DNA of 64,000 bases, from NCBI GenBank assembly GCA_030746435.1, contig JASLMV010000010.1, positions 1-64,000 on the forward strand, in the 5' to 3' direction. The position numbers and the translations under genes are program-made. Shown here piece by piece: positions 4,942-50,033 of the stretch (positions are counted from its first letter, which is position 1; every line of letters starts with the position of its first letter). The DNA is from Gammaproteobacteria bacterium (GTDB lineage: Bacteria > Pseudomonadota > Gammaproteobacteria > Steroidobacterales > GCA-2729495). The notes under the pieces were generated by a model. The model was not told the DNA's origin and ran no database searches. It saw only the letters and a program-made list of their open reading frames with translations.

Positions 4942-5991
4942 TTGAACGTTGCAATAGAAACCCGGGAATTCCTGCTGGAGCCCACAGACAATAATGTACT
5001 GGCGAACCTTTGCGGCCAGTTCGACGAACACCTTCGGCAAATCGAACAACGCCTGAATATAAGAATCAGCAACCGCGGTAACCATTTTCGTATTGTCGGG
5101 ACCCATAATGCGTCTGCGGTGGGCGCGCAGGTCCTGCAAGACCTTTATGTGCTGGCAGGCAAAGAAAACCTCGACTTGCAGCGGGTACACATGTGTTTAC
5201 AGGAAGCGGCTATGAACCAGGAAAGTGAATCCGATGCCCCGCCTCCGGCCGATGCGGCGGCGCCGGGTCCGGACGAAGAATCTGTCGATCAGCAAGCGGA
5301 TAACACGGAACAGGTCATTGTCACCCGGCGGGTGAGGATAAAACCTCGCGGCAAGCATCAGCATAGCTATGTCGAACACCTGCGTAACAAGGAACTCGTG
5401 TTCGGTATAGGGCCGGCGGGTACCGGTAAAACCTTTCTTGCAGTGGCAAGCGCAGTGGAGGCGCTGGACCAGGAACGCGTACGGCGTATCGTCCTCGTGC
5501 GCCCGGCGGTCGAAGCGGGTGAGCGGCTCGGATTCCTGCCGGGGGATATGTCGCAGAAGGTTGACCCTTATCTGCGGCCGATGTACGACGCACTTTACGA
5601 AATGCTCGGCTTCGACCGGGTAGCCAGGCTGGTCGACAAGAATATCATCGAGGTTGCGCCGCTGGCTTTTATGCGCGGCAGGTCACTGAACGAGAGTTTC
5701 GTGATACTCGATGAAGCCCAGAATACGACGGTCGAGCAAATGAAAATGTTTCTGACCAGGATGGGATTCGGTTCATGCGCGTGCGTGACGGGGGATATTA
5801 CCCAGATCGATTTGCCGCGCCACCAGACTTCCGGCCTGAAACATGTAATCGAGGTATTAGGCAATGTAGACGGTGTGGCCTTCGATTATTTCTCGCCTCG
5901 TGACGTCGTGCGCCATCCGCTTGTGCAGAGGATCGTCGAAGCATACGAGGGCTACGAAAATGATGCTCAGGAGTCCGGTGAAGATCAGTGA
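4942..5991 (+). CDS. ybeZ: PhoH-family ATPase YbeZ
   Basis: PhoH-like P-loop ATPase that works with the neighbouring endoribonuclease YbeY in ribosome and RNA quality control. The 349-residue protein carries Walker A GPAGTGKT and the DEAQN Walker B. Its N-terminal part, with [16 protein letters not shown], is typical of YbeZ. Residues about 93–120 form an acidic, Pro/Ala-rich insert ([15 protein letters not shown]) before the ATPase. No ATG exists near the expected N-terminus, and the frame starts with TTG at 4942. The gene lies 30 bases after miaB and overlaps the ybeY start. Confidence 0.95.
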
Positions 5992-6485
5992 ACGCGGAGC
6001 CTGTCAGGGTGAATTTACAGGTCGCAACCGATGCGCCGGGTCTGCCGGACGAAGCTGAGTTCGCTGCCTGGGTGAATGCAGCAGTGGTCGCGGGCGATAC
6101 CGGGTCGCGGGCCAACGGCAGTGCCAGTTTGGTTACTATACGGGTAGTCGATGATCAGGAAAGCAGCGCCCTGAACGGGGATTTTCGTGACCAGCACAAG
6201 GCGACCAACGTTCTGGCCTTTTCCGCGGGTGCCGTGGTGCCGGACGAGGAACAAGGGGATGATAAAGAACTCGGCGATCTGGCCATCTGCTTCGACGTTG
6301 TCGTGAGCGAAGCCGTGGAACAGGCCAAACCCGTCGCGGCGCACATGGCGCATCTGACCGTACATGGTACGTTGCACCTGCTCGGTTACGACCACCAGAA
6401 TGACGTGGATACGAAGATCATGGAAAGCCTGGAAACCCGGATAATGACGAAGCTCGGCTTTCCCGAGCCTTACGGTGACTTGTAG
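5988..6485 (+). CDS. ybeY: Endoribonuclease YbeY (rRNA maturation factor)
   Basis: Zinc-dependent single-strand endoribonuclease involved in 16S rRNA 3' end maturation and 70S quality control. The metal-binding motif [15 protein letters not shown] supplies the three His ligands (HxxxH…H). The length of 165 residues is normal. The GTG start overlaps the ybeZ stop by 4 bases (GTGA), implying translational coupling between YbeZ and YbeY. Confidence 0.95.
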
Positions 6486-41852: not shown

Positions 41853-41870
41853 GTTGCCGGCCTGAAAGTG

Positions 41871-42959
41871 ATGCAAATGGGAAAACAAACAGATTTTTTC
41901 GAGCGGCATTTGGCAGCGGGCGCCAGGATCGTTGATTTCGGCGGCTGGGATATGCCGCTGCATTACGGATCGCAGCTTGACGAGCACCATGCCGTCAGGA
42001 ATGGTGCCGGCGTATTCGATGTCTCGCATATGACCGTTGTCGATGTAGCCGGTGCTGACAGCCGTAACTGGTTAAGGCGGCTGCTGGCGAACGACGTCGG
42101 GCGGCTCTCTTCCCCCGGCAAGGGACTCTACAGTTGCATGCTTAACCCGGCGGGTGGCGTTATCGATGACCTGATCGTTTACCGGCGCCGGGGTTCCGGG
42201 TACCGCGTAATCGTCAACGCCGCAACGCGCGATACGGACCTCGAGTGGATGCAGGCAACGGCCGCCGACTTCGACGTGGCTATAAACGAACGCAGCGATC
42301 TTGCGATGCTCGCGGTGCAGGGTCCCGCTGCGCGCGAGAAGGTCGCGCCGCTGCTACCGGAAGGCCTGGGGAAAGAGGCGCTGCAGCTCGGCACTTTCGA
42401 GTCGCTCGATCACGACGATGTGTTCGTGGCGCGCACGGGTTATACCGGTGAGGACGGCTGGGAAATCCTGCTCGAACCTGCGGCAGCCCGGAAACTGTGG
42501 GATGCATTAATTGCGGCCGGCGTGCAGCCCTGCGGCCTCGGTGCCAGGGATACGCTGCGGCTCGAAGCAGGGCTAAACCTCTATGGGCAGGATATGGACA
42601 CGCAAACCTCACCGCTGGTGAGCAACCTGGGCTGGACGGTTTGCTGGGAACCGGGCGACCGGGATTTTATCGGCCGGAAGGCCCTGGAAGAGCAAAGAGA
42701 GAAAGAGCTTTCACACCGGCTGGTAGGTCTGGTACTGGAAGATCGTGGCGTTATCCGAACGGGGCAACGTGTCGTGACGGATGCCGGCGACGGCCGGGTG
42801 ACGAGCGGCGGATTCTCACCCACACTTGAATGTTCCATAGCGCTTGCGCGTGTGCCGGCGGATGCCGGCGAACATTGCGAAGTCGAGATAAGGTCTAATC
42901 TAAAACCGGCACGCGTCGTGCGCCCGCCATTTGTAAAACAAGGACAAAGACAGGTTTAA
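41871..42959 (+). CDS. gcvT: Glycine cleavage system T protein (aminomethyltransferase)
   Basis: Transfers the aminomethyl group's carbon from H-protein to tetrahydrofolate and releases ammonia. The 362-residue protein starts MQMGKQTDFFERHLAAG and shows DFGGWDMPLHYGSQLDEHHAVR and LRLEAGLNLYGQDMD. GTG 41868, ATG 41871 and ATG 41877 are all plausible starts. It is the first gene behind the glycine riboswitch. Confidence 0.96.
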   Translation: MQMGKQTDFFERHLAAGARIVDFGGWDMPLHYGSQLDEHHAVRNGAGVFDVSHMTVVDVAGADSRNWLRRLLANDVGRLSSPGKGLYSCMLNPAGGVIDDLIVYRRRGSGYRVIVNAATRDTDLEWMQATAADFDVAINERSDLAMLAVQGPAAREKVAPLLPEGLGKEALQLGTFESLDHDDVFVARTGYTGEDGWEILLEPAAARKLWDALIAAGVQPCGLGARDTLRLEAGLNLYGQDMDTQTSPLVSNLGWTVCWEPGDRDFIGRKALEEQREKELSHRLVGLVLEDRGVIRTGQRVVTDAGDGRVTSGGFSPTLECSIALARVPADAGEHCEVEIRSNLKPARVVRPPFVKQGQRQV

Positions 42960-42973
42960 CGCGGAGAAGAAAG

Positions 42974-43369
42974 ATGAGTGAAGTACCCGACAGTTGTATG
43001 TACACGAAAGATCACGAATGGTTAAGGCTGGAGGATGACGGGAGCGTCACCATCGGGGTTACCGACCATGCGCAGGAGGCACTGGGCGAACTCGTGTTCG
43101 TCGAGACTCCGGAAGCAGGTGCGGCATTTGGCGTGGGCGATGCCTGTGCTGTCGTTGAATCGGTCAAGGCTGCCAGCGATATTTATTGTCCGGTAGCGGG
43201 CGAAGTTACCGAGGCTAATGCGGCGCTCGTCGATAAACCTGAGCTGGTAAACAGCAGCCCCTATGATGACGGCTGGGTGTTCCGCCTGCGCCCGGAGAAT
43301 GCGAAGGCGATCGACGAACTTATGGATGCGGAAGCCTACAACCGCTTCCTTGCCGAACTCGAAGACTGA
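42974..43369 (+). CDS. gcvH: Glycine cleavage system H protein
   Basis: Lipoyl carrier that shuttles the aminomethyl intermediate among P, T and L proteins. The 131-residue sequence has the lipoylation site VVESVKAASDIYCPVAG with Lys65. It lies 14 bases after gcvT with an AGAAAGA ribosome site. Confidence 0.97.
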   Translation: MSEVPDSCMYTKDHEWLRLEDDGSVTIGVTDHAQEALGELVFVETPEAGAAFGVGDACAVVESVKAASDIYCPVAGEVTEANAALVDKPELVNSSPYDDGWVFRLRPENAKAIDELMDAEAYNRFLAELED

Positions 43370-43386
43370 AAGGCTAAACAGCAACC

Positions 43387-44748
43387 ATGCCATTTGTCCC
43401 GCATACAGAATCCGATATCAGTGCGATGCTGGCACGTCTGGGCGTTGCCGACATCGCTGACTTGTTCGATGAAATCCCCGCCGGATTGCGAATTAAGGGC
43501 CTGGAGGGCATAGGCCCTGCATTGAGTGAGGCCGATATATCGAGGCTTATGCAGACACGCGCCCGCCAAGATGGTGAGCCGTTGTGTTTTACCGGTGCCG
43601 GCGCTTACGACCACTATGTCCCGGCGGCCGTATGGGATATCGCAACCCGCGGTGAGTTCTACAGTGCGTACACGCCCTACCAGGCCGAAGCGAGCCAGGG
43701 GACACTGCAGGTTATTTACGAATTCCAGACGATGCTGGCGAGCCTGACCGGCCTCGATGTATCCAACGCGTCTCTTTACGATGGTGCGACAGCATTCGCG
43801 GAAGCGTGTCTGATGGCGGTGCGCGCGAATCGCAGGAACCGGTCGCGCAAAATCCTGGTATCCAGGACACTCAGTCCGGCCTGCAGGGAGGTCGCGCGGG
43901 TCATGCTGAAGGGCCAGCAGATCGAACTGGTCGAGTTAGCGATACGGGACGGGGTCAGTGATTCCGATGCGCTGAATAATCTGTCGGCTGCAGATTTTGC
44001 GGCGGTGGCCATTCAAAACCCAAATTTTCTCGGCTCACTCGACGCGGTTGATGTACTGACCGACTGGGCACACAGTGGCGGCGCACTCGTGATCGGGGTT
44101 GCCAACCCGATGGCGCTTGCGCTCCTCAAGCCACCGGGGCAGTGGGGTGCGGCCGGTGCCGACATTGCGTGTGGCGAAGGACAACCCATGGGTATTCCCA
44201 TGTCGTCGGGCGGACCTTATTTCGGTTATCTCGTTTGCCGGCAGGACATCGTCCGGCAGATGCCGGGCCGAATTGTCGGCCGCACGGTTGACCTTGAAGG
44301 CAAGCCCGGTTTTACGCTCACTTTGCAGGCCCGCGAGCAGCACATCCGCCGGTCGCGTGCGACATCCAATATCTGTACGAACCAGGGCCTGGTCGCGACA
44401 GCCGCAACAATCTATATGTCGCTTATGGGCGCGTCCGGATTGCGCAGCGTTGCGACGAAGTGCAACGCTAATACCAATGCACTGGTCGATGCGTTAACAG
44501 CGCTTCCCGGTGTAACCAGGGCTTTTGCGGCACCGTTTTTCCACGAGGCGGTGCTTACTTTTGATCGTCCGGTTGCCGGCGTGCTCGATACCTTGTCCTC
44601 GAACGGCATCCTCGGCGGTTACGATTTGTCTGCCGATTACCCGGAACTGGGCAATGCGTTGCTGGTATGTGCAACGGAAATGCGCAGCGCCACTGATATT
44701 TCGGCTTATGCCGGCATAGCGAGCGAAATATTCGGAGCAGCGGCATGA
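43387..44748 (+). CDS. gcvPA: Glycine dehydrogenase (decarboxylating) subunit 1
   Basis: Alpha half of the two-subunit P protein. The 453-residue protein starts [19 protein letters not shown] and includes [22 protein letters not shown] and [12 protein letters not shown]. coli has a single long GcvP; this genome has the split form. Its stop overlaps the gcvPB start by 4 bases, as suits an obligate complex. Confidence 0.96.
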
Positions 44749-46202
44749 CTGAAGCACTGATCTTCGAGTACCGGTCCGAGGGCCGGAAAGGCTTTGTAGC
44801 GGGACCGGATGCAGTGCCGAAACTGCCCGCAGAAGCGCTCCGGGCCGATGAACCGACCTTGCCAACCGCTTCCGAGTTGGAAGTTGTGCGCCATTTTACC
44901 CGGCTTTCGCAACAGAACTTTTCCATAGACACACAGTTCTATCCCCTGGGTTCGTGCACGATGAAATACAACCCGCGTGTCTGTAACCAGCTCGCAATGC
45001 TGCCGCAGTTTCTTGGGCGACATCCGCTCGGCCCTGTGGAGCATGGACAGGGCTATCTGCAGACCATGTTCGAACTCCAGGAAATGCTGCGGATTGCGAC
45101 GGGCATGGCGGCCGTATCGCTGACGCCGATGGCTGGCGCGCAGGGAGAATTTGCAGGCGTGGCAATGATAAAGGCCTATCACGAGTCACGTGGCGACGAT
45201 GCGCGTAACCAGATTATCGTGCCTGACGCAGCGCACGGTACCAACCCTGCGACGGCAACCATGTGTGGTTGTGAGGTCGTCGAGATTTCCACCCGGCCGG
45301 ACGGCGACCTCGATATCAACCGGCTGCGCGAGGTTTTGGGACCGAACACCGCAGGCATCATGCTGACCAACCCGTCTACACTGGGATTATTTGAACGGCA
45401 AATAGAAGAAATCGCTGCAATCGTTCATGCAGCCGGCGGGCTTCTTTATTACGACGGTGCCAACCTGAACGCGATTCTGGGTAAAACCCTGCCGGGCGAT
45501 ATGGGTTTTGACGTCATACACATGAACCTGCACAAAACCTTTTCTACACCGCACGGAGGGGGTGGCCCCGGCTCCGGTGCCGTGGGCGTTGCGGAGCGGC
45601 TGAAACCCTTTTTACCGGTACCGTTCGTGCAACGGCTGGACGGCCGTTACACCTGGGCGACGGAAGAACATTACCCGCAAAGTATCGGACGCCTGTCTGC
45701 CTTTATGGGTAACTCAGGCGTATTGCTGCGTGCCTATGTGTATATGCGTATGCTTGGCCGGGCAGGAATGGAACGCGTGGCGGATTTTGCCGTACTAAAT
45801 GCCAACTACCTCATGGTATGTCTGCGCGAGGCGGGCTTCGATGTCGCCTTTCCCGAACGGCGTGCCAGCCACGAATTTATTATTTCCCTGAAATCGATTG
45901 CGCGGGAGACGGACGTAACCGCAATGGATTTTGCGAAGGCATTGCTGGATTATGGCTTCCACGCACCAACGACTTACTTTCCGTTGCTGGTGCCGGAGTG
46001 CCTGTTAATCGAGCCTACCGAGAGTGAATCGCGGCATGCGCTTGATGCCTTTGTCGCCGCACTGGTGGACATACGCGATACGGCGTACTCGAATCCGGAC
46101 AAGGTAAAGGAGGCGCCCGTAACGATGCCGGTCCGCAGGCTCGATGACGTGCGTGCCGCTAAACAACCGGACCTGGTGTGGCAAGCACCCGGTGCCGGCT
46201 AA
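44745..46202 (+). CDS. gcvPB: Glycine dehydrogenase (decarboxylating) subunit 2
   Basis: Beta half of P protein; decarboxylates glycine with PLP. The 485-residue protein holds the PLP Lys264 in [19 protein letters not shown], and [11 protein letters not shown] upstream. The length is normal. No lpd (L protein) gene is in the operon, as expected because L is shared with other complexes. Confidence 0.96.
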
Positions 46203-46249
46203 CGAAAGGCTGCCGCCTTACCAGGCACAGCCGACCCAGGAGTAAATGA

Positions 46250-47188
46250 ATGTCAGCATTAATTTGCGGCTCGATGGCTTACGACAACATCATGGTGTTT
46301 CCCGGCCGATTTAAGGAGCAAATCCTTCCGGACCAGATTCATATCCTTAACGTGGCTTTCCTGGTGCCGGTCATGCGCAAGGAGTTTGGTGGTTGTGCCG
46401 GCAATATCGCATACAACCTTAACCTGCTCGGCGGCACAGGTTTCGCGATGGCGACCGTTGGCACAGACTTCGAGCCCTACCGGGCGTGGCTGGAACAGCA
46501 GGGCCTCGACAGCCGTTACCTGAAGGCAATAGATACCGCGCTTACTGCCCAGGCCTATATCACGACCGACCTGGACGATAACCAGATTACGGCTTTTCAT
46601 CCGGGTGCCATGGACCACGCGCACCTGAACGAGATTCCCGCCGATGCAGGCATTAGCATCGGCATGATTTCACCTGACGGCAAACAGGGCATGGTGGATC
46701 ACGCCCATCAGTTCGCGGCCGCCGGCATACCGTTTGTATTCGACCCCGGCCAGGGACTGCCGATGTTTGACGGTGATGAACTGCGGGACCTGATTGCCAA
46801 GGCAAGCTGGGTCGCGGTGAACGATTACGAAGGGCAGATGTTGCAGGAACGCACCGGCTGGTCGGAAGATGAGATCGGCGCACAGGTAGACGCGCTGATC
46901 GTTACACGCGGTGCGAAGGGTTCCGCTATCCTGAGTGACGGTGAGCGCATCGAAATACCGGCGGTCGAAGCGGTTAGCGTCAGTGACCCGACCGGTTGCG
47001 GTGACGCTTACCGCGCAGGCCTGCTTTATGGGCTGCTGAACCAAATGAGCTGGGCCGATACCGGCCGTCTTGCGGCGGTACTCGGCGCTATCAAGGTGGC
47101 CAGCCAGGGCACGCAGAACCATGATTTCACGCGTGACAGCGTTAACGACGTGTTCGAGCAGAATTTCGGATACCGGCTGGATTTCTAA
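46250..47188 (+). CDS. PfkB-family carbohydrate / nucleoside kinase
   Basis: The 312-residue protein has the PfkB N-terminal Gly-rich part (GGCAGNIAYNLNLLGG) and the C-terminal signature DPTGCGDAYRAGLLYG with the catalytic Asp. The sequence pattern is closest to bacterial adenosine-kinase-like members, but ribokinase-type substrates are possible. It starts 48 bases after gcvPB and may be cotranscribed, so it may fall under glycine control. Confidence 0.85.
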   Translation: MSALICGSMAYDNIMVFPGRFKEQILPDQIHILNVAFLVPVMRKEFGGCAGNIAYNLNLLGGTGFAMATVGTDFEPYRAWLEQQGLDSRYLKAIDTALTAQAYITTDLDDNQITAFHPGAMDHAHLNEIPADAGISIGMISPDGKQGMVDHAHQFAAAGIPFVFDPGQGLPMFDGDELRDLIAKASWVAVNDYEGQMLQERTGWSEDEIGAQVDALIVTRGAKGSAILSDGERIEIPAVEAVSVSDPTGCGDAYRAGLLYGLLNQMSWADTGRLAAVLGAIKVASQGTQNHDFTRDSVNDVFEQNFGYRLDF

Positions 47189-47216: not shown

Positions 47217-50033
47217 ATGCACATGAAGCTTTGCATACGGTCGACAGTAATGCGTTTCGCATTGCTGCTTTTGTTGCTTGTACAGACTGCAATTGCAGAT
47301 AGCGAAACTGCCGACTGGAGCGAGATGATCGAGCGCATCTCCACGGGCGTTGTGTCACTGAAGATCGATGTAACCCGATCATTCGATACCGAACGTAGTG
47401 TGTCCACGCAGGCAACAGGTTTCGTTGTCGATGCCGACAAGGGCCTGATTCTGACTAATCGACACGTGGTAACGCCGGGGCCGGTGCGCACGGAGGCGCT
47501 GTTCCTGAACCAGGAAGAAGTGCCGCTGATCCCGGTGTATCGCGATCCGGTCCACGACTTCGGGCTGTTTCGTTACGACCCGGAAGCGTTGAGCTATATT
47601 CAGCCGGTTGAACTGACCCTGACACCCGAGCGTGCCGCTGTCGGCCTGGAAGTGCGTATCGTGGGTAACGATGCCGGCGAACAACTGTCCATCCTGTCTG
47701 GCACAATCGCGCGCCTCGACCGCCGCGCACCGACCTACGGTTTTGCCAACTACAATGATTTCAATACTTATTACATTCAGGCGGCGTCCGGCAGTTCCGG
47801 GGGTTCGTCCGGGTCGCCGGTGCTGGACAAGCAGGGACGGGTCGTGGCCCTGAATGCGGGGGCCAGCAGCACAGCCGCGTCCAGTTTTTTCCTCCCGCTC
47901 GATCGCGTGAAGCGAGCGGTCGATCTCATTCGGGCAGGTAAACCGGTGACCCGTGGCACCCTCGGTGTCCAGTTCGTACAGGTTGCATTCGACGAACTGC
48001 GCCGGCTGGGGTTGCAGGCAGGAACCGAAGGCAACTTCCGCCGGGAGTTCCCGCAACAAACGGGTATGCTGGTCGTCAGCAATATTCTGCGTGGCAGCCC
48101 GGGCGAGGGTTCTCTGCAGGTTGGTGACATACTGCTCTCGGTCAATGGCCGCAATCTCACCGATTTTGTGCCCCTAGAAGCGATTTTGGACGACGGCGTC
48201 GGAGTGCCGGTGCGCCTGACTGTCGAACGTAACGGCGCCCGTCTCGAGCAGGAGTTAATCGTCGCCGACCTGCATGCCATTACGCCCGGGCAATATATCG
48301 AGATCGGGGACGGCATCGTCCATGAACTCTCCTACCAGCAGGCGTGGCATATTAATCGTCCCATCGCGGGCGTTTATGTTGCTGCGCCCGGATACGTGTT
48401 AGGTACGGCTAATATTCCCCGCCGGAGCGTCATCGTCGAAATGGATGGCCAGACCATCGACAACCTCGATGACTTTGAAGCCGTGCTCGCACAGTTTGCG
48501 GACCGCCAGGAAGTAGCCGTGCGCTACTTCACCATGGAGGATCCGTCGAACAGTAAGCTGCGTATCATCCGGATGGACCGGCGGTGGTTTCCTCTAAACC
48601 GCTGCGTGCGCGATGATGTGCAGGGTTACTGGCCGTGCAGGGCACTCGACCCGGGCCCGCCTGCAAAGCCTCCCGAGCCGGCGACAGCCGGTTTTATAGA
48701 GCAGGAAAGCAGGCTGTTGCAGAAGCTGGCACCGTCGCTCGTGCTGATCAACTTCGATATGCCCTACACGATATCGGGCGTCAGTGACCGACACTATTAC
48801 GGTACCGGGGTCATTGTCGACACCGAACGGGGCTATGTCGTCGTGGACCGCAACACGGTGCCGGTCGCCATGGGCGACGTGCGCATCACCTTCGCCGGTT
48901 CGGTGGAAACCACTGCCAAGGTCGAGTTTGTACATCCGCTCCATAACCTCGCGCTGCTTTCTTACGACCCTGCGCGTATTGGCGATACACCCGTTCGCCC
49001 CATTACGATTCACAACAGGGAGCAACGCGCAGGCGCTGAACTGGTTGCGGTCGGCCTGCGGCCCGACAGCAAACTCGTGAGTCAGGATGTACAGGTCGCA
49101 TCGGTCGATGCTGTCAAGCTGCCGTTATCGCGCACGATGAGGTTCCGTGAATCGAACCTCGAAACGCTGTCACTGGTGACGCCGCCGCGTGGTATCGATG
49201 GTGTCCTCGTTGACCGGCGCGGAAGGCCGGTAGCGCTATGGTCCAGCTTTGCCTATGACAGCGGTGGCGACGTTCGCCAGGAAAACAAAGGTGTGCCCAT
49301 AGATCTCGTGGAAGAAATGCTCGAGATCGTCCGCAGTGGTGCCGGGGTGCGTTCGATCGAGGCGGAATTCAGCCAGATGCCTTTGTCCGCCGCACGTAAC
49401 TTCGGCCTGTCCGATCAGTGGGCCGCGCGTATGGAAAAAGCTGATCCCGAACGCCGGCAGCTGTTGTCGGTGGTCCGGACAGTCGGTGGTACGAAGACGG
49501 CCGAAGTACTCGAACCGGGCGATCTGCTCCTGAGTATCGAGGGTAATCCGGTAACCCGGTTTCGCGAGGTCGAGAAAGCTACGCAAAAAGACAAGGTCCG
49601 TGTGACGGTATGGCGTAACAAGGGCGAGCAGAGTTTCGATATCGAGACGACGCGTCTCGATGGCCGCGGGGTACGGCGGGTAATTATGTGGGGCGGGGCG
49701 CTGCTGCAGGAACCTTACCGGGAAATGGCGGCGCAACGCGCCATCAGTACCGAGGGTGTGTATGTGGCCTATTTCGGTTACGGCTCACCCGCATCCCGCT
49801 ACGGGCTCACGGCCGGGAGCCGCATCGTGGAAGTCAACGGGACAAAAGTCGCGGGCCTGGATAGCTTCCTCGAACTGGTCGGTGATGTGCCCGGCGGTCA
49901 GTCGGTGCGGCTCACGACAGTGAGCTGGAACGATGTCCCGCGGGTCATTACGCTGAAACTCGACCCGGTTTACTGGCCTGCATGGGAAATCCTGTACAAC
50001 GGGGACTGGCACCGAATCGCGCTTAGCGATTGA
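47217..50033 (+). CDS. Large two-lobed HtrA-like protease with PDZ domains (Nma111-like)
   Basis: The 938-residue protein has a signal peptide (RFALLLLLLVQTAIA), so it is probably periplasmic. Its first trypsin-like domain has the triad: His83 in TNRHVV, Asp114 in PVHDFGLF, and Ser198 in SSGGSSGSPV. PDZ-like segments follow (about 235–345 and 350–450). A second protease-like lobe (about 505–700) has lost the triad: DRNTV, HNLALL and GIDG replace His, Asp and Ser. More PDZ-like parts fill the C-terminus. This active-plus-dead tandem layout, and SSGGSSGSPV itself, match yeast Nma111/Ynm3 and plant Deg7 rather than DegP/DegS. Starts at 47223 or 47250 are possible. Confidence 0.88.
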   Translation: MHMKLCIRSTVMRFALLLLLLVQTAIADSETADWSEMIERISTGVVSLKIDVTRSFDTERSVSTQATGFVVDADKGLILTNRHVVTPGPVRTEALFLNQEEVPLIPVYRDPVHDFGLFRYDPEALSYIQPVELTLTPERAAVGLEVRIVGNDAGEQLSILSGTIARLDRRAPTYGFANYNDFNTYYIQAASGSSGGSSGSPVLDKQGRVVALNAGASSTAASSFFLPLDRVKRAVDLIRAGKPVTRGTLGVQFVQVAFDELRRLGLQAGTEGNFRREFPQQTGMLVVSNILRGSPGEGSLQVGDILLSVNGRNLTDFVPLEAILDDGVGVPVRLTVERNGARLEQELIVADLHAITPGQYIEIGDGIVHELSYQQAWHINRPIAGVYVAAPGYVLGTANIPRRSVIVEMDGQTIDNLDDFEAVLAQFADRQEVAVRYFTMEDPSNSKLRIIRMDRRWFPLNRCVRDDVQGYWPCRALDPGPPAKPPEPATAGFIEQESRLLQKLAPSLVLINFDMPYTISGVSDRHYYGTGVIVDTERGYVVVDRNTVPVAMGDVRITFAGSVETTAKVEFVHPLHNLALLSYDPARIGDTPVRPITIHNREQRAGAELVAVGLRPDSKLVSQDVQVASVDAVKLPLSRTMRFRESNLETLSLVTPPRGIDGVLVDRRGRPVALWSSFAYDSGGDVRQENKGVPIDLVEEMLEIVRSGAGVRSIEAEFSQMPLSAARNFGLSDQWAARMEKADPERRQLLSVVRTVGGTKTAEVLEPGDLLLSIEGNPVTRFREVEKATQKDKVRVTVWRNKGEQSFDIETTRLDGRGVRRVIMWGGALLQEPYREMAAQRAISTEGVYVAYFGYGSPASRYGLTAGSRIVEVNGTKVAGLDSFLELVGDVPGGQSVRLTTVSWNDVPRVITLKLDPVYWPAWEILYNGDWHRIALSD

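Follow-up and report, generated by a model that had tools for sequence, protein, structure and literature searches.

A gammaproteobacterial tandem HtrA protease with a dead second lobe probably belongs to the Nma111/Deg7 family

Introduction

Do bacteria possess their own branch of the tandem HtrA proteases whose second lobe is dead, a kind that the literature we searched describes from fungi and plants? The question is raised by a gene in a 64,000-nucleotide stretch of gammaproteobacterial DNA (the window), whose product was proposed, in a first-pass annotation made from the sequence, to be a relative of the eukaryotic tandem HtrA family. Proteins of this kind, ~1000 aa long, are known as Deg/HtrA clade III (PMC3473262), and plant Deg7 is taken as an orthologue of the fungal protease (PMC4130198); it is for Deg7 of plants that the duplication has been discussed. 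As noted by Klim et al. 2018 (PMC5982838), human HtrA is more distant from some bacterial proteins than the yeast protein is, and a link between bacteria and Nma111 is thus not entirely new. Our literature search, which covered what is accessible without subscription journals, found no paper on the bacterial branch, its order-wide presence or the cysteine pair described below.

Results

The ORF list and translation give an intact ORF of 938 aa at 47217–50033 on the + strand. Two HtrA proteases are fused in this one chain, the first with an intact active site and the second dead. The gene and protein have the following features.

47217–50033, + strand: tandem HtrA protease, complete gene including the stop codon (ORF and Pfam)
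47217–47297, + strand: predicted signal peptide, residues ~1–27, h-region FALLLLLLVQTAIA, with a possible cleavage site, predicted from the sequence, after AIA
47322–47936, + strand: protease lobe 1 (active), residues 36–240 (Trypsin_2; fold Z 24–27 to DegP/DegQ)
47463–47465, + strand: catalytic His83 (invariant in 57/57)
47556–47558, + strand: catalytic Asp114 (invariant in 57/57)
47808–47810, + strand: catalytic Ser198 in GGSSGSPV (invariant in 57/57)
47958–48266, + strand: PDZ 1, residues 248–350 (PDZ_6/PDZ_2 in Pfam; model)
48276–48581, + strand: PDZ 2, PDZ_1-type (PF12812), residues 354–455 (Pfam, 53.8 bits)
48585–48644, + strand: linker hairpin carrying the invariant Cys463/Cys474 pair, putative disulfide (57/57; model strands)
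48729–49331, + strand: protease lobe 2 (dead), residues 505–705 (profile comparison, model and fold matches)
48852–48854, + strand: Asn546 at the catalytic His position (half-versus-half profile, 57-row alignment)
48945–48947, + strand: Asn577 at the catalytic Asp position, motif HPLHN (half-versus-half profile, 57-row alignment)
49194–49199, + strand: Ile660-Asp661 at the catalytic Ser position (half-versus-half profile, 57-row alignment)
49359–49652, + strand: PDZ 3, residues 715–812 (profile match to the first half's PDZ 1; model)
49680–49991, + strand: PDZ 4, PDZ_1-type, residues 822–925 (29.1 bits; model)

The module order, protease-PDZ-PDZ-protease-PDZ-PDZ, and the length class of ~1000 aa are as in Nma111/Deg7 (clade III). 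Pfam detected two stretches of Trypsin_2 (101 bits), three of PDZ_6 and two of PDZ_1 (PF12812), the last with 74.3 bits for the whole protein against a Pfam cut-off of 28; the curated Do-family model TIGR02037 scored 146.9 bits, below its cut-off of 416.2. The two halves are repeats of one another: BLAST aligned residues 35–459 with 498–921 (21.6% identity, E 5e-17), and profile-profile comparison of the halves extended over 422 columns (probability 100, E 1.6e-46). Four PDZ-type modules, two behind each protease lobe, were found by Pfam and in the models, extending the first-pass annotation, which had placed PDZ-like parts around the lobes. Single-lobe Do proteases of ~500 aa (L011–L036) match PDZ_1 weakly on their second PDZ; PF12812 alone is therefore insufficient to identify the tandem family.

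Alignment A2 (57 rows) comprises the window protein and 56 homologues from bacteria. His83, Asp114 and Ser198 of lobe 1 are present without variation in 57/57 rows. At the equivalent sites of lobe 2, the His position is Asn in 48/57 rows and His in none (Asn546 in the window protein), the Asp position is Asn in 56/57 and Asp in one (Asn577), and Ser is found at the Ser position in 0/57 (Ile660/Asp661). The earlier description of a secreted 938-residue protein with an intact triad in lobe 1, and with His, Asp and Ser all replaced in lobe 2, thus stands, the secretion resting on a likely signal peptide. The serine site, said to be worded as in Nma111 and not as in DegP, indeed reads SGGSSGSPV where DegP-type proteins have GNSGGAL. 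In conservation the dead lobe roughly equals the PDZ domains (1.71 bits of mean entropy in A2 versus 1.64–1.89), which suggests that it is retained for something other than cutting. The pseudo-site region of lobe 2 is itself conserved (DRNTVP, HPLHN).

AlphaFold, run on A2, produced a model with a mean pLDDT of 90.3 and a pTM of 0.87; pLDDT was <50 at both protein ends, and confidence was lower in the lobe 1 loops around residues 150–220. The whole model matched DegP, DegQ, Deg2 and Deg9 (Z 24–27) in its first half only, at most over residues 28–479, and the second half, residues 495–938, was therefore modelled separately (A3). The A3 model (pLDDT 93.2, pTM 0.91) matched complete protease-PDZ-PDZ chains of DegP/DegQ (Foldseek E 1.8e-21). 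Its superposition on DegP covered 353 residues with a VIA Z of 22.6; the rmsd of 10 is large because domains are shifted. The superpositions on Deg2/Deg9 had a Z of ~21 and an rmsd of 5.2–5.4 over 374–385 residues. The predicted fold of the second lobe is that of trypsin, and this half, folded alone, is an HtrA protease-PDZ-PDZ unit, which settles in the model a check that the first-pass annotation had called for. The listed PDB matches name no solved Nma111/Deg7 structure, which says nothing about the fold.

The sequences of yeast Nma111 (997 aa) and Arabidopsis Deg7 (1097 aa) used in our comparisons are uncurated versions of these proteins. Both pass length and Pfam checks (PDZ_1 191.9 and 97.4 bits, above the 74.3 of the window protein), and their triads lie at 121/152/236 in Nma111 and 91/122/206 in Deg7. 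The yeast serine is residue 235 in the literature, so the sequence used may be off by one residue. The Deg7 length of 1097 aa is also given in PMC4754418.

The window protein is colinear with both, sharing 35.5% identity over 923 aa with the uncurated Nma111 (E 0), and 45% in the N-half and 35% in the C-half with the uncurated Deg7. In a tree of N-lobes, 21 bacterial and the two eukaryotic proteins form one clade (100/100) that excludes 13 Do proteases, among them DegP, DegQ, DegS and the genome's own Do protease. In a tree of both lobes, the N-lobes (100/100) and the C-lobes (99/96) form separate clades, each mixing bacteria and eukaryotes, for which the simplest explanation is a single duplication and a single loss of the triad. 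On these trees, in which eukaryotes are represented by two uncurated sequences, the unit was probably duplicated and lobe 2 inactivated a single time, earlier than the split of the bacterial and eukaryotic lineages. In the HPxHN motif of lobe 2, Asn replaces Asp in the bacteria, Nma111 and Deg7 alike, and NTV at the lobe 2 His site is common to the bacteria and Deg7.

An ordinary DegP/DegQ paralogue that became tandem independently, and came to resemble Nma111/Deg7 by convergence, would also have the DegP/DegQ fold in each half. This scenario, however, is rejected on the lobe trees: it conflicts with the fully supported clade that joins the protein to Nma111/Deg7, with the separation of the N-lobe and C-lobe clades, and with the shared substitutions at the lobe 2 Asp and His sites, and we regard it as scarcely credible. 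On this evidence, the protein is probably a bacterial representative of the Nma111/Deg7 tandem HtrA family. The relationship to the eukaryotic tandem proteases proposed at the outset is thereby upheld by the joint clade, the colinear halves and the lobe-by-lobe grouping, and the protein falls outside DegP/DegQ/DegS (100/100) in the tree that had been suggested as a check.

A strongly hydrophobic leader is present in 56/62 ORFs, a count that includes near duplicates; the remaining 6/62 are under the signal-peptide hydrophobicity limit, some of them because the true N-terminus lies further upstream. Lipobox-like leaders, with LTSC or LTAC, were seen in rows L008/L067 and L009 of class family f3. 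Given these hydrophobic leaders and lipobox-like motifs, export to the periplasm is likely, in some relatives as a lipoprotein. In some relatives (L053, L056, L066 and L003, the last at 5710–6030, with up to ~80 residues), a low-complexity stretch rich in Pro and Ala separates the leader from the protease lobe.

Cys463 and Cys474 are invariant in 57/57 rows, and in 51 they are the sole cysteines of the mature protein. They sit between the halves, on model strands 461–464 and 474–476, and the natural reading is that they probably form a disulfide in the oxidising periplasm. The same sites are Tyr/Tyr and Tyr/Ala in the uncurated Nma111 and Deg7, which have 15 and 13 cysteines elsewhere. At the level of sequence, the pair, a further addition to the first-pass annotation, is a bacterial hallmark, missing from both eukaryotic sequences.

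Searches for the gene covered Pseudomonadota, in samples of the window's order, class and phylum. In the window's order it was found in 352/396 genomes and 68/72 genera, nearly always as a single copy; it is near-universal there and no oddity of one genome. Within that order, it was not found in the listed genomes of the family f101 (1.1–1.6 Mb) or in the three of the genus g218. In the class sample, 25/369 genomes have it, spread over at least 11 families outside the window's order. In the phylum sample of 398 genomes, it is confined to the window's own genome and to four from class family f3, with no full-length copy outside Gammaproteobacteria. Five further gammaproteobacterial or proteobacterial MAG contigs with the gene were found by name; no relative was found on viral contigs, and none on plasmids at E 1e-30. 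In one genome (G1080) the protein is split over two contigs at residue ~396–424 (L090 and L091), probably by an assembly break.

The genes upstream of the tandem protease lie on the same strand, and the stop codon of the kinase gene is 28 bp before it.

41868–47188, + strand: gcvT, gcvH, gcvPA, gcvPB and a pfkB-type kinase gene, upstream conserved neighbours (Pfam/curated models; conserved context)

We compared this context in 20 regions, four further loci and the window. The gcv genes lie upstream in most order members and in two outside families (L105, L106), with pfkB, dgkA or neither in between; downstream genes among the compared loci include Sua5 and a cpYpsA protein. The succession gcvT-gcvH-gcvPA-gcvPB, then pfkB or dgkA, then the tandem protease recurs across several families (L097–L106, L116). 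The gcv arrangement was not found in the more distant families among the compared regions. Gene order kept across families supports long vertical descent, and we do not take the gcv neighbourhood as a sign of a metabolic link. A scan for promoters and terminators gave nothing above chance.

These data bear on the direction in which the gene moved. We consider it an evenly balanced proposition that the bacterial family was the source of eukaryotic Nma111/Deg7, early eukaryotes having acquired the already fused, half-dead protease in a single transfer from a gammaproteobacterium (or a relative); in the eukaryotes the protein would then have lost the signal peptide and the Cys pair. The reverse, a transfer from a eukaryote into an early gammaproteobacterium, where the signal peptide was gained, would suit the confinement of full-length copies in the phylum sample to Gammaproteobacteria, and bacteria as one clade are not rejected (p-AU 0.355 for N-lobes; for C-lobes 0.402 without long rows and 0.124 with them). 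It seems improbable, however, given the deep bacterial spread (at least 12 families, with identity to the window protein down to 29%), the families that mostly form clades of their own in the tree and the neighbourhood conserved across families. Moreover, the uncurated Deg7 reaches ~52% identity (N-half) to order members, compared with 29–31% for f3 rows L010/L018 to the window protein. In the C-lobe tree, the eukaryotes diverge later than L010/L018 (99/97), although these two rows sit on a long branch; the nesting of the eukaryotes depends on these long rows, and without them the tree has an unresolved fork. None of three AU tests on the direction of transfer was significant.

Discussion

The following model, which as a whole we consider probable, would account for the protein. 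A protease-PDZ-PDZ unit would have been duplicated in tandem and fused, the second lobe then losing its triad. The product would be exported to the periplasm, as its signal peptide and Cys pair suggest, where lobe 1, with its intact triad and HtrA fold, may act as a serine endoprotease on unfolded or damaged envelope proteins, clients perhaps being brought to it by PDZ 1. Lobe 2, unable to cut, would most likely be a scaffold for assembly and for holding clients, a role carried over from Deg7; the Cys463-Cys474 disulfide would probably fix the hinge between the halves. By this analogy, a periplasmic protease-chaperone with the dead lobe as scaffold is the likely role. Deg7 reportedly forms trimers by way of the degenerate lobe (PMC4754418, citing Schuhmann 2011; PMC3473262), and chaperone-like holding is reported for Ynm3 (PMC4877387). 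Since the genome also encodes one copy of an ordinary Do protease (L094, 463 aa), beside which the tandem protease would act, the latter probably has its own task in envelope quality control.

Alternatively, the dead lobe might be mainly a regulator, or a client-binding decoy that controls lobe 1, rather than an assembly scaffold. The full protease-PDZ-PDZ fold retained by the modelled second half, the conserved pseudo-site region and the less confidently modelled loops of lobe 1 (~150–220), which would fit a switchable active site, all agree with this; trimerisation, the role reported for the degenerate lobe of plant Deg7 (PMC4754418, PMC3473262), speaks against it. We think this control function possible but rather unlikely, and prefer the scaffold.

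Given a near-universal, single-copy bacterial branch, the duplication and the inactivation of lobe 2 probably date from before the bacterial and eukaryotic lineages diverged. The origin of Nma111/Deg7 thereby becomes open to test, and the bacterial protein, likely periplasmic, is a simple system in which to study the purpose of a dead protease lobe.

Known members of the Nma111/Deg7 family are eukaryotic, nuclear or plastid (locations that do not define the family), whereas the window protein is bacterial with a likely signal peptide. Yeast Nma111 is nuclear. Nma111/Ynm3 of S. cerevisiae (997 aa, uncurated sequence) resembles the window protein in domain order, active lobe 1, dead lobe 2, two occurrences of PDZ_1 and the GGSSGSPV serine site, but has no bacterial-type leader and no counterpart of the Cys463/474 pair, and the lobe 2 His is replaced by Arg instead of Asn. 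Arabidopsis Deg7 (At3g03380, 1097 aa, uncurated sequence) shares the NTV...HPxHN pseudo-site of lobe 2; unlike the window protein, it has a long insert between the halves, no bacterial-type signal peptide and no Cys pair. Its published architecture, PD-PDZ-PDZ-PDia-PDZ-PDZ (PMC3473262), is that of the window protein, and its location is reported as plastid, nucleus, mitochondrion or cytosol (PMC4130198). E. coli DegP, DegQ and DegS and the genome's own L094 share with the window protein the HtrA fold of each half, the His-Asp-Ser triad and the likely compartment, but have one protease lobe and a GNSGG serine site, and belong to another clade.
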